64,000 nt of DNA from Gerris lacustris (taxonomy: Eukaryota; Arthropoda; Insecta; Hemiptera; Gerridae), in the NCBI GenBank assembly GCA_951217055.1, contig OX578276.1, forward strand, positions 29,721,505 to 29,785,504. Reading direction: 5' to 3'. Numbering within the stretch: position 1 is the stretch's first letter; the number at the start of each line of letters is the position of its first letter. This document shows, one piece after another, positions 55,701 to 64,000 of the stretch. The position numbers and the translations under genes were made by a program. A model generated the notes under the pieces. The model searched no databases, was not told the DNA's origin, and saw only the letters and a program-made list of their open reading frames with translations.

Positions 55701-56257
55701 CTTGCTGTATGTAAGTTCGTATCTCTTCTCTTGATAAAGATGGCATTAATATTGAGTTGTATTTTTTGCCGAATTAATTATTTCCGGAGGATTATTAATC
55801 TCTACATTTTCGTCAAAGCCACTTGATTCATTAATTGTTTTTCACTAAAAACTCGATATAAACAGTTACTTTAATAAAAGAATAGCAAATTCGTTTTTAT
55901 TAAATGTAAACAAAATTGCTTATCGTGCGTAAAGCTGAAGAATTCCTCTTCTTTACCGCGCTAGCGTGGTAAAGAAGAGGAATTCTTCAGAACTATGAGA
56001 CGCGCATGCGCAATGAATACAAGTACATAAATAATCACTTTCTACGCATTTAAACAGAGATATAATGTTTATATTTTGTATCAATCGTAGATAAAATTAA
56101 TTTTAAATTTTACTTTTACTAATTAATTTTTGTATAATTAAAATAAGTAAAGATCACAACTCACATATTTCTGAGGATCTAAGTGTCTGAAAAATTCCAT
56201 CATTGTGGCAGTTTTTGAGGTTCCTGATTCACCAACAAGCACAACTGGCCTTTTAAC
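1033..56257 (-). CDS. DNAH10: Axonemal dynein heavy chain 10-like gene, C-terminal half (33 exons, partial at both ends)
   Basis: The gene encodes the motor part of an axonemal dynein heavy chain, an ATP-driven minus-end microtubule motor of the inner dynein arm. Thirty-three exons on the minus strand join into about 1866 codons. Seen in order: AAA3 P-loop GESGTSKT, Walker [12 protein letters not shown]4 P-loop GVGGSGKQS, stalk helix CC1, microtubule-binding region, CC2, AAA5 ([18 protein letters not shown]), AAA6 ([26 protein letters not shown]) and part of the C-terminal domain. Assignment to DNAH10 rather than another axonemal heavy chain rests on recalled similarity along the whole length, for example in [24 protein letters not shown] and [15 protein letters not shown]. 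The family is about 4,500 residues long, so the tail, AAA1 and AAA2 must lie beyond 64000 and the last 130-165 residues before position 1. All exon junctions keep the frame except a one-base excess in exon 18. Introns are loaded with transposons. Confidence 0.93.
1266..1528 (-). mobile_element. tRNA-derived SINE, family A, copy 1
   Basis: On the minus strand a tRNA-like head contains the RNA polymerase III B box GGTTCGATCCC (complement at 1454-1465). A body follows with the family-specific run about a pattern of GGTATGATGTG and CCTAATTGC-like stretches. The 3' side ends in a CTA/TAG-rich simple tail near 1216-1270. Four other copies with the same order of parts occur at 2487, 13888, 33465 and 41044. 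Confidence 0.7.
1649..2241. mobile_element. Fold-back MITE with about 150-bp inverted repeats
   Basis: The left arm (about 1649-1804) and right arm (about 2087-2241) are near-perfect inverted complements, both carrying CGCCCCACTCCGGGGCATAG in opposite sense. The 280-bp centre is AT-rich and has no reading frame. No superfamily can be assigned; the ends read TAAAGGT. Confidence 0.75.
2487..2690 (-). mobile_element. tRNA-derived SINE, family A, copy 2 (diverged)
   Basis: It shares the order of parts of copy 1: GTTCGAACCTTG near the 3' side, a GAGCCATATAAAT run, and a B-box-like AGGTTCAATCCT (complement at 2644-2655). It is more diverged and shorter than the other copies. Confidence 0.6.
2786..2997 (-). 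CDS. DNAH10: DNAH10-like exon 32: C-terminal region
   Basis: Residues 1740-1810. It reads [20 protein letters not shown] and [20 protein letters not shown]. The donor GTCATT is weak; it was chosen because exon 33 continues exactly in frame (QLRK then ALAGEIGM). Confidence 0.9.
3169..3486. mobile_element. Tigger/pogo-type MITE, copy 1
   Basis: Terminal inverted repeats begin CAGTACAGTCTCGCTAATTC and end in the related TAGTCAGATTCCACTG. The element is flanked by TA on both sides (3167-3168 and 3487-3488). It has the same ends as the 3749-4502 element and lacks coding capacity. Confidence 0.75.
3749..4502. mobile_element. Tigger/pogo-type MITE, copy 2
   Basis: The TIRs read CAGTAGAGTCTCGCTAATCC at the left and GGATTAGCGAGACTCTACTG at the right, with TA target duplication (3747-3748, 4503-4504). 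The TIR type and the TA target fit the pogo/Tigger group of Tc1/mariner. No transposase is recognisable inside. Confidence 0.85.
4529..5428 (+). mobile_element. Mariner-like element, internally deleted, dead
   Basis: Inverted ends around CACAAAGTGTTCAATAAG are flanked by TA. On the plus strand near 4910-5035 the reading [10 protein letters not shown] then [18 protein letters not shown] resembles the mariner N-terminal helix-turn-helix end. Near 5165-5215 the run [14 protein letters not shown] resembles the C-terminal end of a mariner DDE domain. Stops and shifts separate them and the catalytic core is gone. Confidence 0.75.
5464..5595 (-). CDS. DNAH10: DNAH10-like exon 31: C-terminal region
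   Basis: Residues 1696-1739. It reads [20 protein letters not shown] and ends LIELQPQT. Acceptor CTTCAG, donor GTAATT, phase 1. Confidence 0.93.
6278..6449 (-). CDS. DNAH10: DNAH10-like exon 30: C-terminal region
   Basis: Residues 1639-1695 plus one base. It reads [20 protein letters not shown] and [17 protein letters not shown]. Donor GTAACA, phase 1. Confidence 0.94.
6591..7100. mobile_element. MITE with inverted ends around CTGCCGTCAT
   Basis: The left end reads CTGCCGTCATTATGTTAAAA then GGCCCTA; the right end is its inverted complement, finishing in ACTTATGACGGCAG. An internal copy of the GGAGTTAGGGC motif lies near 6840. No coding capacity and no clear superfamily. Confidence 0.7.
7101..7871. 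other. Intronic, possible old transposon debris
   Basis: Short broken plus-strand readings such as [13 protein letters not shown] and [12 protein letters not shown] look protein-derived, but I cannot name the family. Otherwise it is AT-rich intron. Confidence 0.3.
7872..8033 (-). CDS. DNAH10: DNAH10-like exon 29: C-terminal region
   Basis: Residues 1585-1638. It reads [20 protein letters not shown] and [14 protein letters not shown]. Acceptor TTACAG, donor GTAAGT, phase 0 at both ends. Confidence 0.94.
8034..9468. other. Intron between exons 29 and 28, nothing recognised
   Basis: AT-rich sequence with A runs and a short TA-type repeat at 9340-9352. No transposon ends or conserved frames were recognised. 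Confidence 0.4.
9469..9611 (-). CDS. DNAH10: DNAH10-like exon 28: AAA6 end
   Basis: Residues 1537-1584. It reads [20 protein letters not shown] and [12 protein letters not shown]. Acceptor TTTCAG, donor GTATAT, phase 0. Confidence 0.93.
10315..10640 (-). pseudogene. Transposase C-terminal remnant (Tc1/mariner-like, IGRGG type)
   Basis: The minus strand reads [20 protein letters not shown] then [16 protein letters not shown], and further on [14 protein letters not shown]. This matches the last part of an insect transposase family whose end normally reads SPDLNPLDFFLWG-MKSLVY and ends with a NGGHFE-type motif. Stops and a frame change lie between. A second copy lies at 18850-19060 on the plus strand. 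Left-hand element sequence may reach about 9840. Confidence 0.65.
11320..11521 (-). CDS. DNAH10: DNAH10-like exon 27: AAA6
   Basis: Residues 1470-1536 plus one base. It reads [20 protein letters not shown] and [20 protein letters not shown]. Acceptor TTGTAG, donor GTAAAT, phase 1. Confidence 0.94.
12141..12240. repeat. Interspersed repeat shared with 29085-29172 (inverted)
   Basis: Both places carry AAAAGTTTAGGTCCGCTTTA followed by CGATCTTTATCA in opposite orientation. Probably two copies of one unclassified element; borders not defined. Confidence 0.55.
12577..12733 (-). CDS. DNAH10: DNAH10-like exon 26: AAA6
   Basis: Residues 1417-1469. It contains [20 protein letters not shown] and [10 protein letters not shown]. 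This is the degenerate, non-hydrolysing AAA6 core. Acceptor TTTAG, donor GTAATT, phase 0. Confidence 0.94.
12866..13042. mobile_element. Small fold-back MITE
   Basis: The left arm GGTGAAATCCGCATCACGAA then GAGGTTGAAGTCC is matched by the inverted GGACTTCAACCCCTTCGTGG then TGCTGATTTCAC. Arms are about 45 bp with a 90-bp centre. Confidence 0.65.
13356..13534 (-). CDS. DNAH10: DNAH10-like exon 25: AAA6
   Basis: Residues 1358-1416 plus two bases. It reads [16 protein letters not shown] then [20 protein letters not shown], a conserved AAA6 run. Acceptor TTACAG, donor GTATCT, phase 2. Confidence 0.92.
13888..14385 (+). mobile_element. tRNA-derived SINE, family A, copy 3 (with internal duplication)
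   Basis: The plus-strand head reads AGCGTGGCCGAGGGTCTTAA (A-box-like) and carries the B box GGGTTCGATCCC at 13959-13970. The segment near 13975-14060, with ACTCTTCCCCCAC, is repeated at about 14090-14180, interrupted by an 18-base G run. The body with CACACCATACTTGCTTAGG follows and the copy ends in CTAGACTACTTCTAAGG. Confidence 0.75.
14510..14830 (+). pseudogene. Possible LINE 3'-end fragment
   Basis: Translated pieces read [20 protein letters not shown] then HQEEWRSIV, the pattern GRP-RW-D-ED-R that closes many non-LTR retrotransposon proteins. Frame breaks are frequent. Clade not assignable. Confidence 0.45.
15262..15357 (-). CDS. DNAH10: DNAH10-like exon 24: AAA6
   Basis: Residues 1326-1357, a short 96-nt exon. 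It reads [20 protein letters not shown] and ends HPQEWQD. Acceptor CAAAG, donor GTAAGT, phase 0 at both ends. Confidence 0.9.
16020..16591. mobile_element. Near-perfect long inverted repeat (572 bp)
   Basis: The two halves, about 285 bp each, are inverted complements from the ends (TAGTCAGGGTGCCCATAGGC and its complement) to an AT-rich centre of TTAATTAATATTAAT type near 16290-16340. Only a few mismatches are seen. There is no reading frame. It is either a fold-back or MITE with very long TIRs; transcription in either direction would make a long hairpin RNA. Confidence 0.85.
17204..17367 (-). CDS. DNAH10: DNAH10-like exon 23: AAA6
   Basis: Residues 1271-1325. It reads [20 protein letters not shown] and [20 protein letters not shown]. 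Donor GTTTCA is weak but follows CACAG and fits the frame and the next exon. Confidence 0.91.
17608..18188 (+). mobile_element. Tigger/pogo element, internally deleted, with HTH remnant
   Basis: Ends read CAGTAGAACCCCCCATATCT and the complement GATATGGGGGCTTCTACTG, flanked by TA (17606-17607, 18189-18190). From the ATG at 17850 one frame reads [15 protein letters not shown], stop, LE, stop, [20 protein letters not shown] then WKEGLK. This is the CENP-B/Tigger N-terminal helix-turn-helix with two in-frame TAA stops. The DDE domain is absent. Confidence 0.85.
18846..19060 (+). pseudogene. Transposase C-terminal remnant, second copy of the IGRGG family
   Basis: The plus strand reads [20 protein letters not shown] then [14 protein letters not shown], the same segment as in the copy at 10315-10640. 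It is broken by stops after that. Confidence 0.6.
19802..20075 (-). CDS. DNAH10: DNAH10-like exon 22: AAA6
   Basis: Residues 1180-1270 plus one base; the longest exon here. It contains [20 protein letters not shown] and [20 protein letters not shown], ending NIYDYGCT. Acceptor TTACAG, donor GTAATT, phase 1. Confidence 0.94.
20380..20480. repeat. Repeat family B fragment (G-run, CATTCTTGGAATTGAACC), copy 1
   Basis: TTGCCACTTCACATA, GCTGAAAATAATTTATGAGA, a G run and CATTCTTGGAATTGAACC recur in the same order at 21255-21350. The final part is the complement of a polymerase III B box, so a tRNA-derived SINE read on the minus strand is likely. Confidence 0.55.
20909..20943 (+). ncRNA. Hammerhead-like stem motif, degenerate
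   Basis: GGC, then CTTGAAAA, a TGGCC/GGCC hairpin, GAAACGTC and GCC. Order and spacing match hammerhead motifs known from Penelope-like elements, but the core CTGATGA is changed to CTTGAAAA, so it is probably inactive. A fold-back begins 15 bp downstream. Confidence 0.4.
20958..21143. mobile_element. Fold-back family C, copy 1 (22-bp loop)
   Basis: Arms 20958-21021 and 21044-21107 are perfect or near-perfect complements (TAACTACGGGAAACAGACAG within). The outer right end GTAGTATGAATACTACC survives; the left outer end is missing. Same family as 26220-26643 and 50563-50729. Confidence 0.8.
21255..21560. repeat. Repeat family B, copy 2, with 21-base G run
   Basis: The same block as 20380-20480, extended to TTGAACCCAGATCAAACTTA. 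Further on ATAAGCCCTTTGGCAGGC at about 21520 also occurs at about 54695. Likely SINE material of one or two families; the borders are uncertain. Confidence 0.5.
21693..21911 (-). CDS. DNAH10: DNAH10-like exon 21: AAA5-AAA6 connection
   Basis: Residues 1107-1179. It reads [20 protein letters not shown] and [19 protein letters not shown], followed by [14 protein letters not shown]. This is one of the most conserved DNAH stretches. Phase 0 at both ends, donor GTAAGA. Confidence 0.94.
22023..22177 (-). CDS. DNAH10: DNAH10-like exon 20: AAA5
   Basis: Residues 1055-1106. It contains [20 protein letters not shown] and [16 protein letters not shown], conserved in all axonemal heavy chains. Acceptor TTCTAG, donor GTAAGT, phase 0. 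Confidence 0.93.
22482..22927. mobile_element. Tigger/pogo-type MITE, copy 3
   Basis: Ends read CAGTGGAACCTCGATAATTC and its complement GAATTATCGAGGTTCTACTG, with TA at 22480-22481 and 22928-22929. No coding remains seen. Confidence 0.85.
23201..23479. mobile_element. MITE with nested inverted repeats
   Basis: Ends AGCCTTGTCCACACTAGTAG and the inverted CTACTGGTGTGGACTAGGCT. The inside repeats ACATGTCTA and TTGCGCAACGTGTCTA several times in both senses. No coding capacity. Confidence 0.7.
23948..24125 (-). CDS. DNAH10: DNAH10-like exon 19: AAA5
   Basis: Residues 996-1054 plus one base. It reads [35 protein letters not shown] and [15 protein letters not shown]. Compared with recalled vertebrate DNAH10 a Glu is missing in the DVD-YIDP run, without frame change. 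Donor GTAAGA, phase 1. Confidence 0.93.
24126..25259. other. Intron between exons 19 and 18, nothing recognised
   Basis: AT-rich sequence without transposon ends or conserved frames that I can identify. Confidence 0.4.
25260..25363 (-). CDS. DNAH10: DNAH10-like exon 18: AAA5, with a one-base frame break
   Basis: Residues 961-995. The exon encodes [20 protein letters not shown] then [10 protein letters not shown], the hallmark of AAA5. With the GT donor of exon 17 the first codons read K-W-N-S-Q, exactly what the family expects before GLPPD. However, the DNA has CCCAAAGG where CCCAAGG would keep the frame, so one base is in excess. The exon is 104 nt where 103 would fit. Using the GC donor of exon 17 shifts the frame back and replaces S-K-W-N-S-Q by N-G-I-P-K. 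An assembly error is the other explanation. The downstream donor GTCTGA is weak. Confidence 0.85.
25778..25999 (-). CDS. DNAH10: DNAH10-like exon 17: AAA5 entry
   Basis: Residues 887-960. It reads [36 protein letters not shown] and [15 protein letters not shown]. The usual donor is GTAATT after AGCAA (phase 2). A second possible donor, the GC-type site GCAAGT, lies 4 nt upstream, with the exon then ending at 25782. The choice decides whether exon 18 is in frame. Confidence 0.9.
26220..26643. mobile_element. Fold-back family C, copy 2, with tRNA-like interior
   Basis: Outer ends GGTAGTATTC and GAATACTACC, arms of about 125 bp. Inside the left arm, read on the minus strand (26386 to 26322), is a tRNA-like sequence: TAGCTCAGTTGGTTAGAGCG, an anticodon-like stem CTGTA/TACAG, and GGTTCAAGTCC. 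The right arm holds the other half inverted, without the D arm. The loop carries a further segment that recurs inverted at 26686-26790. Position 33 of the anticodon loop is C rather than T, so this is a derived sequence, not a working tRNA gene. Confidence 0.75.
26686..26790. repeat. Inverted copy of the loop segment of the 26.2-kb fold-back
   Basis: GAGAATTAACGCTTATAATT, CAATATTCACGGCAATAG and TTTTCTA occur at about 26440-26515 and as reverse complement here, with about 10 percent differences. It shows a second, nested inverted repeat. Confidence 0.65.
27297..27484 (-). CDS. DNAH10: DNAH10-like exon 16: stalk CC2
   Basis: Residues 825-886 plus two bases. It is a continuous coiled coil ending [19 protein letters not shown], the return helix of the stalk into AAA5. 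Acceptor ATCAG, donor GTAAAT, phase 2. Confidence 0.93.
28109..28261 (-). CDS. DNAH10: DNAH10-like exon 15: MTBD to CC2
   Basis: Residues 774-824. It contains [20 protein letters not shown] and the motif [14 protein letters not shown] that starts stalk helix CC2. Acceptor TTTCAG, donor GTAATG, phase 0 at both ends. Confidence 0.93.
28540..28735. repeat. Interspersed repeat shared with 23036-23190
   Basis: Both places carry CTGTCTGTC-type sequence, GATGATAACTTGAGTAAAAG, TTGACTGATTT and GTTCAGGCTAAGTT in the same order and orientation. Similar CTGTCTGT plus CCGATTTTAAGGAAATTTG text lies at 37975-38060. Type unknown. Confidence 0.55.
28837..29062. mobile_element. Small MITE with GGGCCC-rich inverted ends
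   Basis: The left TTTATAGAAAAGGGCCCCCC and right GGGGGGCCCTTTTCTATAAG are inverted complements about 150 bp apart. The inner run AGTGTGATATTCCTTCGTCC is also found at about 3505-3545. Confidence 0.7.
29228..30010. other. Possible hAT-type element or MITE
   Basis: The left edge GCAGCGTTCTCAACC and the right CTTCTCGACCCCAAAAAAAT resemble hAT ends of the TTCTCAACC type, but the right border is not clear and no transposase is seen. Confidence 0.3.
30191..30931 (+). mobile_element. hAT element, internally deleted and decayed, with intact 8-bp target duplication
   Basis: The element is flanked by CTCTATAT on both sides (30183-30190 and 30932-30939), the 8-bp duplication of hAT transposons. Ends are CATTGGTTCCCAAAGT and complement of CAGGGGTTCCCAAAGT. 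Plus-strand pieces read [40 protein letters not shown] and [20 protein letters not shown], the C-terminal dimerisation part of a ZBED/Charlie-like transposase. Stops and shifts break the frame. Confidence 0.88.
30940..32225. other. Intron flank, simple AT-rich sequence
   Basis: Contains a CTCTA-type simple repeat near 31530-31585 (AGAGTAGAGTAAAG). No gene or clear transposon is seen. Confidence 0.35.
32226..32418 (-). CDS. DNAH10: DNAH10-like exon 14: microtubule-binding domain
   Basis: Residues 709-773. It reads [19 protein letters not shown] and [20 protein letters not shown], the small globular head at the stalk tip that contacts tubulin. Acceptor TCCAG, donor GTTAGT, phase 0. Confidence 0.94.
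33465..33720 (-). mobile_element. tRNA-derived SINE, family A, copy 4
   Basis: The minus-strand copy starts with a tRNA-like head with B box GGGGTTCGATTCC (complement at 33666-33678). It continues with the body containing GGTACTATGTACAGAGG and CCTAATTGCAAGGTTCGAAC, and ends in the TAGTACTAGACTACTACTAC tail. Confidence 0.8.
34466..34652 (-). CDS. DNAH10: DNAH10-like exon 13: stalk CC1 toward the microtubule-binding domain
   Basis: Residues 647-708. A Lys- and Glu-rich helix ends in [20 protein letters not shown] then TEIR, the invariant run before the microtubule-binding head. Acceptor TTTCAG, donor GTAAAT, phase 2. Confidence 0.93.
35038..35182 (-). CDS. DNAH10: DNAH10-like exon 12: stalk CC1
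   Basis: Residues 599-646 plus one base. It reads [20 protein letters not shown], a coiled-coil heptad region of CC1. Donor GTATTT, phase 1. A TA-flanked transposon begins only 23 nt upstream of the acceptor. Confidence 0.92.
35206..36057. mobile_element. Tc1/mariner (pogo-like) non-autonomous element next to a splice acceptor
   Basis: Ends read CAGTAAAACCTGGATAAGGT and the complement of CAGTAAAACCTGCTAAAGTG, flanked by TA. The inside repeats GTGGTCAC and its complement near both ends. There is no transposase. Its left edge is 23 nt from exon 12, so the element lies across the usual branch-site window of that intron. Confidence 0.85.
36800..36997 (-). CDS. DNAH10: DNAH10-like exon 11: start of stalk CC1
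   Basis: Residues 533-598. It reads [20 protein letters not shown], the entry to stalk helix CC1 of axonemal heavy chains. Acceptor GTGCAG and donor GTAACA; phase 0 at both ends, so the open frame reading into both introns is accidental. Confidence 0.92.
36998..38670. other. Intron between exons 11 and 10
   Basis: Apart from the CTGTCTGTCTGT-type repeat at about 37975-38160, I see nothing identifiable. It is AT-rich. Confidence 0.35.
38671..38863 (-). CDS. DNAH10: DNAH10-like exon 10: AAA4 end
   Basis: Residues 468-532. It contains [20 protein letters not shown] and [20 protein letters not shown], matching the dynein signature before the stalk (here SMAPGD where many heavy chains have SPVGD). 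Acceptor TGAAG, donor GTAAGT, phase 0. Confidence 0.93.
38946..39433. mobile_element. piggyBac-like MITE 1
   Basis: The element lies between two TTAA sites (38942-38945, 39434-39437). It has inverted ends CCCTCTGCCTGGAACATG and the complement of CCCTCTGCCCGGAACATCG. TTAA targets and CCC ends are characteristic of piggyBac. Inside, ACCGGTAGATT-type and TACCGATG motifs repeat. No transposase. Confidence 0.85.
40188..40317 (-). CDS. DNAH10: DNAH10-like exon 9: AAA4
   Basis: Residues 425-467. It reads [20 protein letters not shown], the conserved AAA4 stretch after Walker B. Acceptor TTAAG, donor GTATGT, ends in phase 2. Confidence 0.92.
41044..41315 (+). mobile_element. tRNA-derived SINE, family A, copy 5
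   Basis: The plus-strand head reads GCCATCATGGCTAAGTGG with B box GGGTTTGATCCC (41123-41134). The body contains GATCACACCATACTAGCTTA and CCTAATTGCTAGGTTC, and the tail GGAATAGTACTAGGACC. Same order of parts as copies 3 and 4. Confidence 0.8.
41607..41750 (-). CDS. DNAH10: DNAH10-like exon 8: AAA4 core
   Basis: Residues 377-424. It reads [20 protein letters not shown] and ends [12 protein letters not shown], the AAA4 Walker B region. In many dyneins this strand has a D where FTAS stands here; human DNAH10 has FTDA by recall. Donor GTAAAT, phase 1. Confidence 0.92.
42642..43471. mobile_element. DNA-transposon-like element with GAGCGGGGTTGGTTGGGACA ends
   Basis: The left TAGGGGAGAGCGGGGTTGGT and the right inverted ACCAACCCCGCTCCCCCCTA are about 800 bp apart. 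Motifs of the TTGGACA/TGTCC type recur inside. No transposase frame was recognised; superfamily not assigned. Confidence 0.7.
43536..43880. mobile_element. Probable MITE
   Basis: Imperfect inverted ends: GCTAAGCGCACACAGGAG at the left, and CTCCAGTGTATGCCTGGCTT at the right. GCAGACAATTTTGT and ACAATCTGCAGAC are matching inner parts. Confidence 0.45.
43860..44030 (+). pseudogene. Possible LINE 3'-end fragment
   Basis: The reading [20 protein letters not shown] then SIEGRKWQ resembles the closing GRP-RW-D-ED-R pattern of many LINE proteins. It has few other supports. Confidence 0.4.
44435..44612 (-). CDS. DNAH10: DNAH10-like exon 7: AAA4 P-loop
   Basis: Residues 318-376 plus one base. It contains [20 protein letters not shown] and the AAA4 Walker A motif [18 protein letters not shown]. 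Donor GTGAGT, ends in phase 1. AAA4 binds ATP in dyneins and tunes the motor. Confidence 0.94.
44935..45368. mobile_element. MITE with TA target and GGTTTGTTCCAAC ends
   Basis: Left GGTTTGTTCCAACTAAGCAT and right complement of GGTTTGTTCCAACCCCCC, flanked by TA. GTACCGTCC motifs recur in both senses. No coding capacity. Confidence 0.75.
46488..47493 (-). mobile_element. Jockey-type LINE, 5'-truncated, with target duplication and poly(A)
   Basis: A 12-bp direct repeat ACTACTGCAACT flanks the element (46476-46487 and 47494-47505). The minus-strand copy ends in a poly(A) of about 20 bases (the T run at 46487-46506). It carries the end of a reverse transcriptase: FADDKAI, then [38 protein letters not shown] and [20 protein letters not shown]. 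This order is typical of Jockey and related insect LINEs. One in-frame TAG interrupts it at 47354-47356. The stop of the protein is near 46739. Confidence 0.9.
47506..48896. other. Intron between exons 7 and 6, lower part
   Basis: AT-rich. The run GCGCCGCCAAGCC near 48017 and GGTGCTCCTTGTGGTGCTCC near 48208 may belong to an unclassified repeat. No gene seen. Confidence 0.3.
48897..49085 (-). CDS. DNAH10: DNAH10-like exon 6: AAA3-AAA4 linker
   Basis: Residues 255-317. It contains [20 protein letters not shown], the segment leading to AAA4. Phase 0 at both ends, acceptor CTACAG, donor GTGAGC. Confidence 0.92.
49086..50166. other. Intron between exons 6 and 5, nothing recognised
   Basis: No transposon ends or conserved frames were seen. 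Confidence 0.4.
50167..50355 (-). CDS. DNAH10: DNAH10-like exon 5: AAA3 small domain
   Basis: Residues 192-254. It reads [20 protein letters not shown] and continues with [16 protein letters not shown], the helical lid of AAA3. Phase 0 at both ends, with TTTCAG acceptor and GTAAGT donor. Confidence 0.93.
50563..50729. mobile_element. Fold-back family C, copy 3: perfect palindrome without a loop
   Basis: The left outer end GGTAGTATTCATACTACGG is followed by 67-bp arms, 50596-50662 and 50663-50729. By my reading these are perfect complements with no spacer, centred on CCAGCGCTGG. The right outer end is missing. It is the same arm sequence as in the copies at 20958 and 26220. Confidence 0.88.
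51244..51434. mobile_element. Small fold-back MITE
   Basis: CCAGCCGTTCACTGTCCAAC then TTGATCGTATGG at the left is mirrored by CCATACGACCAAGTTGG then ACCGTGAATGGCTGG at the right. Confidence 0.7.
52050..52135. repeat. Possible hAT terminal fragment
   Basis: The complement strand starts TTGGTTCCCCAACTGGTCTA then CGGACCACCAGG, resembling hAT ends. It is a fragment only, with no partner found. Confidence 0.35.
52272..52486 (-). CDS. DNAH10: DNAH10-like exon 4: AAA3 sensor region
   Basis: Residues 120-191. It contains [16 protein letters not shown], the AAA3 stretch that includes the sensor and arginine region, followed by [16 protein letters not shown]. Acceptor CACAG, donor GTAAGC, ending in phase 0. 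Confidence 0.93.
53150..53261 (-). CDS. DNAH10: DNAH10-like exon 3: AAA3 core
   Basis: Residues 83-119 plus one base. The sequence reads [20 protein letters not shown] and continues [11 protein letters not shown], matching the segment after Walker B of AAA3. Donor GTAAGT; it ends in phase 1 and joins exon 4 to make a Cys codon. Confidence 0.92.
53399..54038. mobile_element. piggyBac-like MITE 2
   Basis: Flanked by TTAA (53395-53398, 54039-54042). Ends CCCGTAACTGGTGAGGTTGG and complement of CTCATAACTGGTGAGGTG. The motif ACCCAACCTCACCAGTT recurs inside near 53600 and 53990. No coding capacity. Confidence 0.75.
54570..54740 (+). mobile_element. tRNA-derived SINE fragment, second family
   Basis: A tRNA-like part with B box GGGTTCAATTCCC at about 54621 is followed by GTATAAGCCCTTTGGCAGGC, which also occurs near 21520. 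The head is diverged. Confidence 0.5.
54868..55100. other. Low-complexity G run and direct repeat
   Basis: A G run at about 54878-54890 is followed by two related copies of GGCATGGATGCA-GAT plus GAGGA-type sequence about 60 bp apart. Function unknown. Confidence 0.4.
55169..55321 (-). CDS. DNAH10: DNAH10-like exon 2: AAA3 Walker B
   Basis: Residues 32-82. It contains [16 protein letters not shown] and the AAA3 Walker B strand [10 protein letters not shown], typical of axonemal heavy chains. It is phase 0 at both ends with donor GTAAGA. The acceptor lacks a good pyrimidine tract, and a 40-bp tandem duplication starts about 20 nt upstream of it. Confidence 0.93.
55342..55421. repeat. 40-bp tandem duplication upstream of exon 2
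   Basis: AAAAGTAGTTCTATTTTGGC then TGTATATCT-AACAAGATT occurs twice with period 40 (starts 55344 and 55384). One C/T difference separates the copies. Confidence 0.85.
55935..55990. repeat. 56-bp palindrome
   Basis: Arms CTGAAGAATTCCTCTTCTTT then ACC, and their exact complement, flank GCGCTAGCGT, which itself nearly pairs. The stem is therefore almost continuous with one G-T pair. It lies in the intron between exons 1 and 2, in sequence richer in CG dinucleotides than the surroundings. Confidence 0.85.
56165..56257 (-). CDS. DNAH10: DNAH10-like exon 1 in window: AAA3 P-loop
   Basis: This exon gives residues 1-31 of the partial protein. It carries the AAA3 Walker A motif in [17 protein letters not shown], which binds nucleotide and regulates the motor. 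The acceptor is TTAG at 56258 and the donor is GTGAGT. Both junctions are phase 0. The intron upstream runs past 61 kb and holds the LINE and Penelope copies. Confidence 0.93.
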
Positions 56258-56498
56258 CTAACATATAAATATGCATTTTGTTTAAAATAACTAATCAAAA
56301 TAGAATAAAAAGATAAATTAACCTATATTTTTTCTGTACTTTTGAGAGATTGATAGTTAGAATAGAATAGAATAGAATAGAAAAATATTTGTATTTAAAG
56401 CAAATAAGCCTTATACAAAGGGGTGTAGCCAAATTACATTAAATTATAAATAACTAAGAAATAATAAAGAGCATTAACGACAAAAATTGGATTAACAA

Positions 56499-59400
56499 TT
56501 ACTCCTCCAGGATAAAAGATCTAGTTTTGAGAATATTTAATACATAATAAAATATGTTTTTACAATTGTTTTTGTTTTGGTAAGTTAATATGGAAGAAAC
56601 ATTAGTCGTGTCTGCCCATTCCTCACTAACTACGTGCATTGGAAGAAAGGATTTTCTTTGGAGCTCATATATTGGGCATCGTAAAAAAATATGACCTATA
56701 TTTCCTTGCTCCCCAAGATTACATATCGGGCAGATTTCATTTGTTTTTATTTTGTGGAGCATCCCTCTAATTGTTAATTTTAAACTATCGAAACCCGCTG
56801 TTCTAACCTGTGCAAGAATACGTTGTACTGAGTAAGGTAGAAATAATGATGTGTTTAGGTAATGATAGTCGGGGCTATTGCAGCTTGTTAATATTCTGTA
56901 TAAACTGGAGTAAGATGAGGTTTGTATTCTGTCCAAGTCTTTTTGTCTAAGTTTTAATCCGTATGCTGTCTGTGTGTTTTGTATAAATGTCGAAGAGAAC
57001 GGTGCTGTTAGTACTAAGTTGGGGTCGACGTCTATTGTGGCTAGTAACTGCTTTACTTGAGAAACCCAGTTATATTTTACAGTATTACCTTGAACCGAAT
57101 CTAAGTATATTAGACGATTAAAGCACTGCTTCACCAGACTATCGTCCTCCAAGCAATGTATTCTGTTTATAAACTTTAACACTTGACCGAGGATTTTAAT
57201 TGAGACATGTTGAACGTCGAACTCTTGCCTCACAATATAATGCGGAGTATTGACGTTTAACGAGAAATAATTTTTAAAGAAGTAGTTTTGTAGAGCTTCT
57301 AATTGCTTAAGGTATCGAAGAGACCATATCGGAGAGGCATACAAGAGAGTTCCAAGCACGGATGCGTTATATACTTGCTTGACAGCTTTAAAGGAGCGAT
57401 TGGATGCTTTAGCAAGAGTTTCTTTAACTGCACCAGATATCGCCCTGCAGCGTGCTACTGTATATTTAGTATTTTCTTCGAATAACCCTCTTTTGGTAAA
57501 ATATACTCCAAGGTAATTAAAACTAGTCACTTCCTCAAGAATTTGATTATTATAGTAGCACTTGGGGCGATTTTGGGACAGATTGCCCTTTGATACTATC
57601 ATGACTTTAGTTTTATTTGTATTCACTGTCAAACCGTTGTCTCGACAGTATTCATCGAGAATTTTCAAAGCTGAATTTAGCTGGATTACCGAGTCTGACA
57701 TTATAGTGAGATCATCTGCGTAGGCTAACAGACTAATGTTTGTTTCACCGTTGATGCTTACACCCTCGTATCCTCTTGCTTTAAAGAACGCGTCGATATC
57801 GCTAATGAAAAGGTTGAACAAAAGAGGTGATAATATTTCACCTTGAAGCACGCCTTTTAATATAGATATTTCGTTCGATTTTTCGTTTTTATAAAGAATT
57901 TTGGTTTTGGCTTGATTGTATAAACTGATTAATACCCGTAGAAATTTTGAGCTCAAGTTTACTCCCTGTAGTTTTTTTATTAGTAGGTGATGATCAAGGC
58001 TATCGAAGGCCTTTTTAAAGTCAACAAAAGCGACAAATAGTTTTCTTTTCGGTAGTCGGATATGATTTTGTATCAATGAATTTAATATAAAGATGTTATC
58101 GCAACAGCTTTTATTCTTTTTGAACCCTGATTGAGTATCAGGGATCAACTTATGTTTTTCTGACCAAAGTCGGAGCCGGTTATTGAGGATGGATGTGAAT
58201 ATTTTTGTAATGCAGTTAATGAGTGCTATTCCTCTGTAATTATTTAAATCGGTTTTTTCTCCCTTCTTGTATAATATTACAGTACATATCTGGGACCAAT
58301 CACTAGGAGTACTTTCCAGTTCTAGGATTTTATTATAAAATAAGTTAAGGTGTTGCAGCCATTCTTGGGGGAGATATTTGAAAAAGTCGTAGCTAATAGA
58401 GTCAGGACCGGGAGTTGTACCACTCTTACATGCATTGATAGCCAGTGTCATTTCTTTATTTGTAATGGGTGTGTCAAGGTCAGGGTCAGTCAACTCTGTA
58501 ATGTTATTGTCGGTCAGTTTTTGTTTGTTATCAGTAGCAGAGTACAGGTGTGAGTAAAAGTCTTCCCATTCATCTAATCTTATTGAGCCGCCTTTGTTTT
58601 GTTTGGTTTGTTTATATTTATTTATTGTTTTCCAGAATTCCTTGTTATCTTTAATATTTGAGAGTTTATTTATTATTTCTAATTTGTAAGATTTCTTTTT
58701 TAATCGGAGTGTTTTTCTATATTCATTGATACATTTTTTAACTTGTGATTTAAACGGTTCTTGAAAACAAGCTTTTTTACATATTCTAGCCGCCTTTCTT
58801 GCAGCTTTTTTTAGAGAGTTACATTCATTGTCAAACCACGGCTTGTTGTGTTTTTTAGGTGTTTCTCCCCGTGTATTGTGTTTGATTTCAATATGTTTTT
58901 TCATACCCAGATCGTCGGCTACATTTTTTATGGTATTTATAAAAGAACTATTTATAATGTTTAAGGGCACAGATTGCATTTTTACCATCAGATCTTCTGA
59001 TAAAGCTGATTTCATACTGGTTGCATACTGTGAGCGTAGATTTACATCCCAATTATATTTATCAATTTTCACTAATGGCCTATTTTGGTACAAAGGCGAA
59101 TCAAATAAACTTTTATCAAGGGTGAGCGAGAGAGGGAAGTGGTCCGATAATTCGTAATATTCTAATATTTTCATATCTATAATTTCGGTCAAGCCTGGGA
59201 GCCTACACCATACAAGATCTACTGTACTCTGTCCATTCCAGTTCATACAGGTGTAGCCGCCCGGCCTGTCCGAAAATGACCTTCCGTTTAGTAGTACAAA
59301 GCCGTAACCTTCAAGTAGTTCACACATTTCCCTCCCGCGCTTATTCACCGTAACATCTAAATAAGTTCTTATTTTACTTAAATTTCCTATGTTATCGCAA

Positions 59401-59981
59401 TCAGGGATTTCGTGGTTTAACCCTCCCACTCTCATATTGAAGTCCCCTCCTAAAATAAATATCTCGTCCTCCTCATTCCTAATTATATTAGACAAGCTAG
59501 TGCTTAATGTATCGTTCACGTGTTCCATATCTAAATCCGGTTTAAAATAGGCATTCCCAAGAATAATGTTTAAGCTTCCATATTGTAGTTTTACAAATAT
59601 CCAATATTGATTTTTCTCTATAACAGATATTTTTATATTAGGATTAAGTAGAAGAACAAGTCCTCCGCTGGAGCGGCCTCTGCTCTTCTCCCTGGTTGCT
59701 GGTGTGGAGACGGCCTGATAGTTGGACCACTGTCCGGTGTCCGGTGCCTTCACTTCATTTGTCTTCCACGTCTCACTTAGACACATCACCTCACACTCAG
59801 TAAACTCCTCGCAGTTCTCCAAAAAGTTGTCATAGCCTTTACAGTTCCAAAACAGCACAGTTAAATGACGGCTCCTTCCCCTCACATCCTCTACAAAGCA
59901 GTGCTGACCCTCGCTGACACCTATTACAAGCTCCTCGCCATCCCCCTGCCTCCTCCTCGGCTCGCCCGGCCCCTGCCGTTG
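56499..59981 (-). CDS. LINE ORF2 polyprotein: APE endonuclease and reverse transcriptase
   Basis: The frame is open from the codon after the ORF1 stop to 56499, about 1160 codons. The first 32 residues contain no Met; residue 33 is a GTG codon at 59885. Counting from that Val, the endonuclease shows FWNCKG (N14), SETW (E38), GGDFN (D148, N150), a YTC-run with D223 near WNGQSTVDLVW, and SDHFP (D248, H249). The reverse transcriptase shows PGPDSISYDFFKYLP, NNYRGIALINCITKIF, VDFKKAFDSLDHHLL, LKGVLQGEILSPLLFNLFIS and AYADDLTIMSDS (YADD at 722-725). Near the C-terminus CPICNLGEQGNIGHIFLRCP is a zinc-knuckle-like CCHC. The first Met is residue 34, after N14, so an AUG start would destroy the endonuclease. 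UGA readthrough, re-initiation or non-AUG start is needed. Confidence 0.92.
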   Translation of the reverse strand, partial: QRQGPGEPRRRQGDGEELVIGVSEGQHCFVEDVRGRSRHLTVLFWNCKGYDNFLENCEEFTECEVMCLSETWKTNEVKAPDTGQWSNYQAVSTPATREKSRGRSSGGLVLLLNPNIKISVIEKNQYWIFVKLQYGSLNIILGNAYFKPDLDMEHVNDTLSTSLSNIIRNEEDEIFILGGDFNMRVGGLNHEIPDCDNIGNLSKIRTYLDVTVNKRGREMCELLEGYGFVLLNGRSFSDRPGGYTCMNWNGQSTVDLVWCRLPGLTEIIDMKILEYYELSDHFPLSLTLDKSLFDSPLYQNRPLVKIDKYNWDVNLRSQYATSMKSALSEDLMVKMQSVPLNIINSSFINTIKNVADDLGMKKHIEIKHNTRGETPKKHNKPWFDNECNSLKKAARKAARICKKACFQEPFKSQVKKCINEYRKTLRLKKKSYKLEIINKLSNIKDNKEFWKTINKYKQTKQNKGGSIRLDEWEDFYSHLYSATDNKQKLTDNNITELTDPDLDTPITNKEMTLAINACKSGTTPGPDSISYDFFKYLPQEWLQHLNLFYNKILELESTPSDWSQICTVILYKKGEKTDLNNYRGIALINCITKIFTSILNNRLRLWSEKHKLIPDTQSGFKKNKSCCDNIFILNSLIQNHIRLPKRKLFVAFVDFKKAFDSLDHHLLIKKLQGVNLSSKFLRVLISLYNQAKTKILYKNEKSNEISILKGVLQGEILSPLLFNLFISDIDAFFKARGYEGVSINGETNISLLAYADDLTIMSDSVIQLNSALKILDEYCRDNGLTVNTNKTKVMIVSKGNLSQNRPKCYYNNQILEEVTSFNYLGVYFTKRGLFEENTKYTVARCRAISGAVKETLAKASNRSFKAVKQVYNASVLGTLLYASPIWSLRYLKQLEALQNYFFKNYFSLNVNTPHYIVRQEFDVQHVSIKILGQVLKFINRIHCLEDDSLVKQCFNRLIYLDSVQGNTVKYNWVSQVKQLLATIDVDPNLVLTAPFSSTFIQNTQTAYGLKLRQKDLDRIQTSSYSSLYRILTSCNSPDYHYLNTSLFLPYSVQRILAQVRTAGFDSLKLTIRGMLHKIKTNEICPICNLGEQGNIGHIFLRCPIYELQRKSFLPMHVVSEEWADTTNVSSILTYQNKNNCKNIFYYVLNILKTRSFILEE

Positions 59982-60785
59982 TCATTTCCTATTAGCTATT
60001 CTTCTTTCAAAATTGTGTAAAATAAGGCATGCATCTAGGCCAGTTATAGAGTTAAATTTTTCAAAGCCACATTCGTTTCTGTGAACTATGCCATCTAAAG
60101 TCTCTGTCATCGAAAATCTATTTCCTTCTATTAAGAGATAGTCCGTATTTAACTTTACTCTGCAATTGGTACTGTGCTTAATCTCTTTTTGTAATGCCAA
60201 GAGTCTTGCTCTTTTTTTCCGAACTAAAGTCGAAAAATCGCGTTGGACACTGTAATTTGTCCCCGCAAGTTTGTAGCAGTTTCGAAGTATGTTGAGTAGA
60301 TCGCTATCTTTGGGAAAATGAGCAATGATCGCCTTTTTAGGGCTCGAATTATTGAGAACATGGGCCCTATTAATTTCTGGTTGAAAATTCAGATGTAGTT
60401 TGTCTTTGCAGAATTGATCGATTAAATCAAAGCAATTTGATTTATCGGCAACTGGAAGACCCCAAAATACTAAGTTATTCCTTCTACCCCTGTTCTCAAG
60501 CTCGTCTACTTTTTTTGTTAGATGAATATTTTCCGTTCTAAGCTGTGAAATTTCGTCTTTTAAGAGCTCGTTTTGTTTAACGACGTCGGCTATAGTTTTT
60601 TTAATCTGATCTAAGTTTGTGGCCAGAGGATTAAGTTTTTTATCTAATAAGGCTTCAAAAGCTGAGAGATCCATGATTGGTTTTTTCTTAGGTGGATGAT
60701 TGGGAGAGGTGTTTTGAGGGGGACTAACTTCTGATCTCGCTCGTTTCGATGATTCTGTTACTAACCCCTTAACCAGTGGCTTCAT
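59982..60785 (-). CDS. LINE ORF1 protein (coiled coil plus RRM-like)
   Basis: An RNA-binding chaperone-type protein of 267 residues from the ATG at 60785. The codons just upstream are open but start without ATG. After a basic N-terminus (PKKKP) a coiled coil runs over about residues 50-95 (NELLKDEISQLRTENIHLTK). It ends in ENRGRRNNLVFWGLP, the entry to the RRM-like fold of L1-type ORF1 proteins. Later RAHVLNNSSPKKAIIAHFPK and YSVQRDFSTLVRKKRARLLA correspond to the RRM end and C-terminal domain. It ends with a TGA followed by C. The reading frame remains open in the same frame for all of ORF2. Confidence 0.85.
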   Translation of the reverse strand: MKPLVKGLVTESSKRARSEVSPPQNTSPNHPPKKKPIMDLSAFEALLDKKLNPLATNLDQIKKTIADVVKQNELLKDEISQLRTENIHLTKKVDELENRGRRNNLVFWGLPVADKSNCFDLIDQFCKDKLHLNFQPEINRAHVLNNSSPKKAIIAHFPKDSDLLNILRNCYKLAGTNYSVQRDFSTLVRKKRARLLALQKEIKHSTNCRVKLNTDYLLIEGNRFSMTETLDGIVHRNECGFEKFNSITGLDACLILHNFERRIANRK

Positions 60786-61141
60786 TAATCGCAATAAGTA
60801 AATAAATAAAATCGATTATTAACAGCGATATAGTGGAAAAGTGCGTTCGCGGCGGATCAATGTGAATTAGAATACAGAGTATCGATGATTACCTAATATC
60901 GATACAGTGGCGGCTACGTCAGCGGTCGAAACAGTGCTGCCTTCGTAAGGTGTTGACTATCGGAAGCCCGTTCAAGGACAAGATTACGGTGAAATCGGTA
61001 AGCCTCGTCTTGTAATATAGCTAATGGCCGTTTTTTCACAGTTTTTACTACAACTTTGACTTGTTATTTATGAAATTAAACTTACTGTTTTTCCAGATAC
61101 GAATATCAAACTCGAGAAAGCTTGAGATAATATCCACTTCC

Positions 61142-61240
61142 GATAGTTTGTTTTTTGTTGTTGTTATATTTGAATAAATGTTTTCCGAGAGATTGATAGT
61201 TTGTTTTTTGTTGTTGTTATATTTGAATAAATGTTTTTCT
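61142..61240. repeat. 53-bp-period duplication of host sequence at the LINE 5' junction
   Basis: GATAGTTTGTTTTTTGTTGT then TGTTATATTTGAATAAATGTTTT occurs at 61142-61184 and again at 61195-61238. The second copy is the host flank just outside the target duplication. The first lies inside the duplication, at the 5' end of the element. Confidence 0.85.
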
Positions 61241-61339: not shown

Positions 61340-61502
61340 CAGTGGCGTACCAAGGCGGGTGTGGGAGGGGTCACGAGCCTTTGGGGTGTGTTATTGTGGT
61401 AGAGAAAAAAAACAAAAAAAAAACACCCTAACATCATTTCTGAGGGGGTGATGACAAAATAACATCCTGCCCTGGGAGTCACAAGACCTTGGTACGACAC
61501 TG
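61340..61502. mobile_element. Small hAT-like MITE
   Basis: Ends CAGTGGCGTACCAAGG and complement of CAGTGTCGTACCAAGG. Eight-base flanks ATTCAGGA and GTTCAGGA differ at one base. No coding capacity. Confidence 0.7.
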
Positions 61503-61565: not shown

Positions 61566-61738
61566 CTTTTTAGTGTTTACCCAAGTAAATGGGTAAGTGT
61601 TCCTGGACATTGTGGCATTGAGGGAAATGAGATTGCTGACCAGTTAGCTACAACAGGTTCCAATTCGACCCCAATTACAACAGAACCCGTTGTTGGTGTG
61701 CCACTTTGTGAATTGAAACATTCTATAAGGAAGGAATA
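61566..61738 (+). pseudogene. LINE RNase H domain fragment
   Basis: The plus strand reads KWVSVPGHCGIEGNEIADQL then ATTGSNSTPITTEPVVGVPL, the C-terminal half of the RNase H domain found in I, Jockey-related and R1 LINEs (VPGHCGIEGNE-AD-LA). It has no start and stops exactly where the Penelope-like 3' end begins. Confidence 0.8.
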
Positions 61739-61785
61739 ACAAAAATCGTCTCTCCACGTAAATTGAAACTGGTTTATTTAACAAA

Positions 61786-62244: not shown

Positions 62245-63708
62245 CTATACCATGTCGGAGATCGACATGAGACTGATTCTCGTAGGGACTGAAGCCAGAG
62301 TCCTAATCAGAAGCGAACCATCCCCCCTCTCGTTAAGGTTCCTCTCACTGGCTCTGCGTTGACTCCTTATTATTTCTAACTTCTCCAAAGAATCAAGCCT
62401 ACGCCCTTTCTGTGCATAATGGAGGAAGCCGATCTTGTGCTGCGCTTGCATGTGATTACGATCGGTTAGGTGCTGATAAAACGTACTATTAGATCGTTGA
62501 AGGTGTTCCTTCGTCCGTATCTTAAAGTTACGCCCCGTTTGACCAACGTATTCAGCGTCGCAGTCGCCGCAGACAATAACGTATACACCGCTTTTATTTT
62601 CCACGCTAACAGGGTCCTTCACATTACTAAGTTGAGCTTGTAAAGATTTATTCGTGCTGAAGCCCACATTGTACTCATACCTAGCTAAGATCTTCGCAAG
62701 CCGGTCCGAAATAGAGCCAAGATAAGGAATAGAGCACCACGTACCTTCTTTCGGTTCATTTCCTGTAGATGCACCCATAGCTTGCAATAATAACTTGCGA
62801 TTCTTTTTTATGATCATTCTGTCAACTAGCCCGTCGCTATAGCCATTATTGTTTGCTATTGTTTTAATGGTGTTAACCTCTTTCCTGTATGCTTCAGGAT
62901 CTAGAGGTAAGGTTAGAAGCCGATGAACCATCGAGTTAAAGGCTGCTAACTTATGGGCCCAAGGGTGATTAGAGTTAGCATGGATTACGGTGTCGGTTGC
63001 GGTAGGTTTTCGGTAAATCTCATATCTTAACGTGTCGGCTGTTCTGATGACTGTAAGGTCAAGATAATTTAACCGATTATTAACCTCAATTTCTACTGTA
63101 AACTTGATGGTATGAAAACATGTGTTTAAATAATTCAGGAAACTATAAAGTTGTACTGTTGAACCGGTCCAAATACAAAAAATGTCGTCGACGTATCTGA
63201 TCCATTTAAAAATATATTTATGAAACTGATTATGTGAACTATTAACAAACTCCTTATAAAAGTAATGTAAAAAGGCGTTAGATCCTAAGGCCGAAAGAGG
63301 GGCACCCATAGCCAACCCTTCCGTAGCTGAATACATCTTGTTATTATAGCAGAAGTAGTTTTGAGATAAACACAAATCTAATAGGTGGGTGAATTCTTGA
63401 ATTACCATTTTATTTGAACAGTGCTTGTTAAGGAGTCGGTTCAAAATAGCTAAAGTTCTATCTTTCGGAACGCTTGTGTACAGATCCTTAACGTCGAAAG
63501 ACACTAACATAGCCTGACAAGGCATCTTTATCGTATCTAATATTTTGACGAACTCCGCTGTATTTTTAACACTGTCTGCAGCTTGGAAATTGGTCATTGA
63601 ATAGAATAACTTGTTAAGATATTTAGCCAATTTATCCGTTGGAGATGAGCAGAATGATACTATAGGTCGAATAGGTATGCCGTCCTTATGCAGTTTAGAA
63701 AGAAGGTA
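62245..63708 (-). CDS. Penelope-like reverse transcriptase / GIY-YIG endonuclease, N-terminally truncated
   Basis: The frame is open from the junction at about 63708 (it reads SKLHKDGIPIRPIVSFCSSP, the first conserved RT block) to a stop at 62245. Positions count from the MAKYLNKLF-like start at 63630, which is a TTG codon. Motif A is FDVKD (45-49), motif B GLAMGAPLS (105-113), motif C YVDD (146-149) and the next block NYLDLTVIR (188-196). The GIY-YIG nuclease shows GVYVIVCGDCDAEYVGQTGR (348-367) with the cysteine pair typical of Penelope elements and KEH (374-376). Penelope proteins are about 750-850 residues, so about 300 are missing. No inner stop is seen. Confidence 0.92.
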   Translation of the reverse strand, partial: YLLSKLHKDGIPIRPIVSFCSSPTDKLAKYLNKLFYSMTNFQAADSVKNTAEFVKILDTIKMPCQAMLVSFDVKDLYTSVPKDRTLAILNRLLNKHCSNKMVIQEFTHLLDLCLSQNYFCYNNKMYSATEGLAMGAPLSALGSNAFLHYFYKEFVNSSHNQFHKYIFKWIRYVDDIFCIWTGSTVQLYSFLNYLNTCFHTIKFTVEIEVNNRLNYLDLTVIRTADTLRYEIYRKPTATDTVIHANSNHPWAHKLAAFNSMVHRLLTLPLDPEAYRKEVNTIKTIANNNGYSDGLVDRMIIKKNRKLLLQAMGASTGNEPKEGTWCSIPYLGSISDRLAKILARYEYNVGFSTNKSLQAQLSNVKDPVSVENKSGVYVIVCGDCDAEYVGQTGRNFKIRTKEHLQRSNSTFYQHLTDRNHMQAQHKIGFLHYAQKGRRLDSLEKLEIIRSQRRASERNLNERGDGSLLIRTLASVPTRISLMSISDMV

Positions 63709-64000
63709 CGTGGTGCTCTATTCCTTATCTTGGCTCTATTTCGGACCGGCTTGCGAAGATCTTAGCTAGGTATGAGTACAATGTGGGCTTCAGCACGAAT
63801 AAATCTTTACAAGCTCAACTTAGTAATGTGAAGGACCCTGTTAGCGTGGAAAATAAAAGCGGTGTATACGTTATTGTCTGCGGCGACTGCGACGCTGAAT
63901 ACGTTGGTCAAACGGGGCGTAACTTTAAGATACGGACGAAGGAACACCTTCAACGATCTAATAGTACGTTTTATCAGCACCTAACCGATCGTAATCACAT
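63698..64000 (+). mobile_element. Second Penelope-like copy, inverted, running out of the window
   Basis: The 303 bases are the reverse complement of 62450-62752, without any difference that I could see. The plus strand encodes the region from KEGTWCSIPYLGS through the GIY-YIG motif GVYVIVCGDCD. It starts abruptly at GAAAGAAGGTAC, sharing about 11 bp with the junction end of the minus copy. Confidence 0.9.

Follow-up and report, generated by a model that had tools for sequence, protein, structure and literature searches.

Mammalian LINE-1 (L1) shares with the LINE described here its two ORFs, the ORF1p fold (coiled coil, RRM and C-terminal domain, CTD) and the combination of an APE endonuclease (EN) with a reverse transcriptase (RT), and we count as a further likeness the reported dependence of L1 ORF2 translation on ORF1 (PMC2881922). 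The junctions differ, in that L1 is described as having a 63-nt inter-ORF spacer with a proposed restart (PMC5972666), whereas our LINE has a single UGA, one common frame and no AUG. In the silkworm element SART1, ORF2 expression likewise depends on the stop site of ORF1, but through a UAAUG overlap, restart and a downstream structure, according to the account given of it (PMC5972666). Our LINE has its ORF2 in frame 0, no AUG and no structure that we could find. In Paramecium, UGA is the sole stop codon. The Group 3 non-LTR retrotransposons of this organism also have ORF1 and ORF2 in one frame, and readthrough was suggested by the authors who described them (PMC5405496); this is the only earlier proposal of readthrough at a LINE ORF1 stop that we found, in a literature covered mostly outside subscription journals. 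However, these elements belong to a ciliate clade with other stop-codon usage, and the text available of that study makes no mention of UGA-C conservation. Type II viral readthrough (alphavirus, tobravirus, coltivirus; UGA-CGG, UGA-CUA) has UGA-C in common with our LINE, and CGG or CUA comes next after the UGA in 10 of 27 LINE families (see below), but the other 17 families have other codons, no general 3' stem-loop was found and the LINE is a cellular retroelement. In gammaretroviruses, which unlike our LINE are LTR elements with a protease, a structural protein and a polymerase are similarly fused by stop readthrough (Gag-UAG-Pol). Their signal is, however, UAG-G plus a pseudoknot (PMC3542737). 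The same source calls UGAC leaky and presents UGA-CGG and UGA-CUA as the classical type II contexts (PMC3542737), and UGA-CUA alone is reported to support 1.5% readthrough (PMC4132726). The comparisons below, made on sequence, indicate that ORF2 of the LINE clade studied here is very probably expressed by programmed UGA-C readthrough, as an ORF1-ORF2 fusion.

The window (the whole stretch of 64,000 nucleotides of Gerris lacustris DNA that was analysed) contains a complete L1-like LINE on its minus strand, at 61140-56359. It has the target-site duplication and the 3' simple-repeat tail of a LINE: the 5' copy of the duplication (AACTATCAATCTCTC, 61187-61201) is identical at 15 of 15 positions to the 3' copy at 56344-56358, and the tail consists of TTCTA repeats (56359-56384). 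At the 5' junction, a filler at 61142-61184 exactly repeats 43 nt of the flanking target at 61195-61237 (repeat family D1). The perfect 15-bp duplication, the TTCTA tail and the exact target copy show that the insertion is recent. Alignments of copies place the 5' end of the element at about 61140, seven of them (L011, L012, L013, L016, L018, L021 and L024) aligning only from this position. All on the same strand, the 5' UTR (60786-61140) is followed by ORF1 (59982-60785; 267 amino acids plus stop) and by the open frame of ORF2 (56499-59981; 1160 codons plus a TAA at 56501-56499).

The ORF1 product belongs with L1 ORF1p by fold only: its AlphaFold model (4 sequences, mean pLDDT 76) shows a predicted coiled coil, RRM and CTD, with human L1 ORF1p (2ykp) as best structural match (E 1e-7), and by sequence there was no match to L1 ORF1p in Pfam or PDB. 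The ORF1 ends of relatives P0036-P0038 fall at most one residue from that of the window. ORF2 encodes both an APE-type endonuclease (residues about 39-295, 59097-59867) and a LINE reverse transcriptase (residues 576-827, 57501-58256; Pfam RVT_1, E 2e-37). The former scores 24.6 bits against Pfam Exo_endo_phos, for a cut-off of 24.5, and its AlphaFold model (15 sequences) matches human L1 EN (1vyb, E 3.7e-13). In the ORF2 model, the first strand of the endonuclease is formed by residues 39-46, and residues 1-36 have a pLDDT below 50. A start at Met66 would therefore be predicted to lose both this strand and the catalytic Asn. In a tree of 34 RT rows without a named reference RT, the element groups weakly (63/45) with P0001-P0004 and P0034; given this placement and the lack of a named reference LINE, we give it no clade name. 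The best protein relatives of ORF2, among the 35 listed, are 21-35% identical over parts. The search of IMG/VR gave no useful relative (one 29% match, L001, was left out), those of GTDB and phages gave none, and the plasmid search gave 310 records, none of them a useful relative, all below 60% identity and to the RT part, the listed ones being mostly group II introns. The N-terminus of ORF2 used as a protein query found no relative. LINEs with 2A-separated products carry the motif D(V/I)ExNPGP; ORF1 and ORF2 of the window contain no NPGP, so our LINE is not one of these. The 2A-like motifs DVESNPGP and DIELNPGP were seen upstream of the coiled coil in two distant ORF1 relatives (P0042 and P0043), one of them from Ixodes scapularis.

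At the junction, ORF1 ends in AGG AAA TGA CAA CGG, with the TGA at 59984-59982 and the UGAC at 59981-59984. We confirmed the observation of an earlier note on this DNA that, after AAA TGA CAA, no stop interrupts the frame for 1160 codons, through the endonuclease and the RT. Between the stop and the endonuclease Asn lies an AUG-less linker of 45 codons in the frame of ORF1 and ORF2 (59847-59980, not counting its first base, C59981), modelled with low confidence up to residue 36. The earlier note was also right that no AUG precedes the endonuclease: no in-frame ATG occurs until codon 66, which is the same residue as its Met 34 counted from the GTG at codon 33 and lies past the catalytic Asn46 (59846-59844). 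With the first in-frame AUG in this position, and no Met before the Asn in 59 of the 67 related loci described below, we rejected an ordinary AUG start for ORF2. The start of the linker (59981-59862) is 62% GC, against 33-44% in blocks of ORF1, in an element that is AT-rich.

A UGA seen in a single copy could be a private nonsense mutation or an assembly error. We searched the 937-Mb assembly of 69 contigs to which the window belongs with a junction probe, and obtained 19 matches: 14 of full length at 99-100% (the window included), a partial match at 99%, another match at 79% and three short ones. All 13 other near-identical junction copies carry AAATGACAACGG; they agree with the window in the UGA-C, the frame and the first AUG and have no indel in the linker, so that the UGA is common to 14 of 14 copies. 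In ten of the 13, the aligned part shows neither a frameshift nor another in-frame stop, which indicates that the element does not use UGA as a sense codon throughout. L024, an older copy that is decayed elsewhere, retains AAATGACAA and an open frame-0 linker, even though this linker has a different sequence and, measured up to the common GTAATAGGT, is shorter by nine bases. The linker of L024 is A-rich where that of the window is GC-rich. Between the two linkers, pN/pS is 0.46 over 34 codons, and in 13 close pairs the pooled linker changes are 5 synonymous and 11 nonsynonymous (pS 0.023, pN 0.014); these values weakly suggest selection on the linker.

The ATG that overlaps the TGA (ATGA) begins an open frame of 48 codons in the -1 register, and AUGA is described as a known restart arrangement (PMC5972666, PMC3542737). 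The unusual length of this frame gave early appeal to a coupled stop-restart, in which ORF2 would begin in the -1 frame and the window copy would have changed frame within the linker. Of the 15 ORFs that start with ATG in the -1 register over ORF1 and ORF2, this frame is the longest (the next has 15 codons); a codon shuffle gives its length in a fraction of only 0.004-0.024, and over its first 15 codons it is favoured by a codon-position score. However, an amino-acid score does not favour it, the codon-position score is also misled by GC-rich control windows within ORF2, and synonymous resampling reaches the same run length in 20% of trials. Moreover, none of the 13 other junction copies has the linker indel that the change of frame would call for, L024 has a stop in the -1 frame after 12 codons, and ATGA is present in only 7 of 28 families. 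We rejected this explanation, which L024 and the families contradict and to which we leave barely any probability. Two ad hoc coding-frame scores on the linker were set aside because they contradicted each other, and the zinc-finger-like look of the -1 frame found no support in Pfam (best match YnfU, E 0.1).

The search was extended across the genome with the ORF1 protein as query, which gave 144 scored matches of 1054 candidates, at 100 to 29% identity. We took the 30 best loci (L025-L054), 20 by rank with gaps and 20 hand-picked for spread lower down, all without regard to stop context, and added the junction-probe loci L010-L022 and L024; removal of 11 duplicates and of L023, which has no ORF1, left 73 distinct loci. 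In 70 of these 73, the first in-frame stop after ORF1 is UGA-C, the exceptions being L082 (UGA-G), L090 (UAA-A) and L094 (UAG-U). An EN motif pattern, searched within 140 codons, was found in 67 loci and lies in frame 0 in 65 of them; the other two, L075 (UGA-C) and L082, have it in another frame. The six loci without EN by this pattern (L024, L040, L041, L042, L090 and L094) were left out of the family count; tblastn places the EN of L024 and L040 in frame 0, that of L041 in +1 and that of L042 in -1. L091, counted among the 65, has two in-frame UGA-C stops two codons apart (UGA-CAG-GAA-UGA-CGG) before its linker, and in L053 another TGA occurs in frame, just upstream.

Clustered at 80% nucleotide identity, the 67 loci form 28 families, of which 27 have UGA-C together with at least one copy with EN in frame 0. 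Thus, the idea of a private mutation or assembly error, to which we give next to no credence, is refuted by copies and families alike, and there is no majority of copies with a sense codon, with an ATG ahead of the WNCKG block or with ORF2 in a different frame, the outcomes that the earlier note had named as telling against its reading. Over the 27 families, the UGAC carries 2.0 bits per base, and any other base from -12 to +18 at most 1.01 bits. The number of residues before the Asn ranges from 13 to 61, and the linkers differ by eye. As UGAC is invariant while the lengths and sequences of the linkers vary, we infer that it has been retained against strong divergence, throughout the clade as it occurs in this one genome. 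In most families the endonuclease is not preceded by an AUG: counting from the last stop to the Asn, an in-frame Met is present in 8 of the 67 loci, and 5 of the 28 families include some copy with one. Frame 0 runs on without a stop through all of the sequence examined in 16 of 20 representatives. Both features expected of readthrough, in-frame coding beyond the stop and conservation of the stop with its context, are present.

Part of these observations would also be compatible with termination at the UGA and an L1-like restart 3' of it, at a non-AUG codon in frame 0, which would yield a free ORF2 protein. Mammalian L1 makes its ORF2 by what has been described as an unconventional mechanism (PMC2951350, PMC5972666), and the linker of the window holds the near-cognate codons GTG 33, GTG 42 and CTG 43. 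L024, however, reads GTC, ATA and TTA at these sites; the codons are therefore not kept, and this includes the GTG from which the earlier note had counted. Furthermore, such a restart leaves the retention of UGA and its C unexplained when the linker itself is not kept. We regard it as unlikely. Because a non-AUG restart would not need UGAC, and the AUGA restart is rejected, readthrough is the explanation that we prefer.

As a control, the terminators of ORF2 itself are UGA-C in none of 10 families (nine read at the far end, plus the window): seven are UAA, one UAG and one UGA-A, and that of the window is UAA-U. The difference between the two ends (Fisher p 2.3e-8) is descriptive, since the families are related and all lie in one genome. 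Extrapolated by coordinates over about 3.3 kb of which not all letters were read, the frame of the ORF1 UGA closes on the common ORF2 C-terminus in 9 of 10 representatives; in L098 (copy L049), outside these nine, ORF2 ends in another frame than the coordinates predict. If the UGA were removed from the RNA, whether edited to UGG (A-to-I) or spliced out, an in-frame fusion would arise without any readthrough. However, the C conserved just after the stop is a determinant of termination and would not be expected under editing, and ADAR disfavours a G 5' of the edited A. We consider this route very unlikely.

Readthrough in this clade would not be of type II in the window, which has neither CGG or CUA as the next codon nor a predicted extended 3' stem-loop. 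Its next codons, CAA-CGG, correspond neither to type II nor to the full CARYYA. The excess of CUA and CGG among the families (p 0.001 against uniform use, 0.0003 by composition) was noticed post hoc. The search for a 3' RNA stem proposed in the earlier note predicted none for the window (z -0.55 and +0.60); z was -0.79 for the 3' fold of L024 and from -2.24 to +1.83 over the 28 family representatives, with only one below -2.

These data support the proposal of the earlier note that ORF2 is made by readthrough, as a fusion. Under the readthrough model, most ribosomes would stop at the UGA and free ORF1p. A small share would insert an amino acid at UGA-C and carry on into the endonuclease and the RT, across a linker that varies from roughly 13 to 60 residues. 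The resulting ORF1-ORF2 fusion could then join ORF1p trimers on the same RNA, which would provide both a Gag/Gag-Pol-like ratio and a tether, so that the RT may be held to the trimers by the fusion itself. We lean, with some reserve, toward a broader reading: that this is an old and diverse animal LINE clade in which most families have no independent ORF2 protein, the EN-RT existing only as a readthrough fusion within ORF1p trimers, in a Gag-Pol-like manner set by UGAC alone and without RNA structure. If this is true, one base (the C) should set the ratio of ORF2 to ORF1, and cis preference would follow directly from the fusion. With UGA-C readthrough as the only evident route to ORF2, the clade offers a clean and testable system, and the families supply 27 natural animal readthrough contexts with a common UGAC core and no recognised stem.

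As for its surroundings, the window also contains exons of a dynein heavy chain at 919-52505 on the minus strand (Dynein_C, AAA_8, AAA_9, AAA_lid_1 and AAA_7). An exon-like stretch on the same strand, GESGTSKT, noted by eye at about 56165-56258, lies some 85 bases from the 3' target-site duplication of the LINE. Together with the dynein exons, this suggests that the LINE is intronic and in the orientation of the gene. On its other side, an RT at 62245-63717 (minus strand) has a GIY-YIG match just under the Pfam cut-off, faces an inverted part-copy at 63699-63998 (plus strand) and is presumably a Penelope-like element. A small MITE-like unit with 16-nt inverted ends (I19) occupies 61340-61502, with TTCAGGA on both flanks, and an RNase H-like fragment recognised by eye at 61580-61739 on the plus strand (VPGHCGIEGNEIAD) is perhaps the remnant of another LINE.
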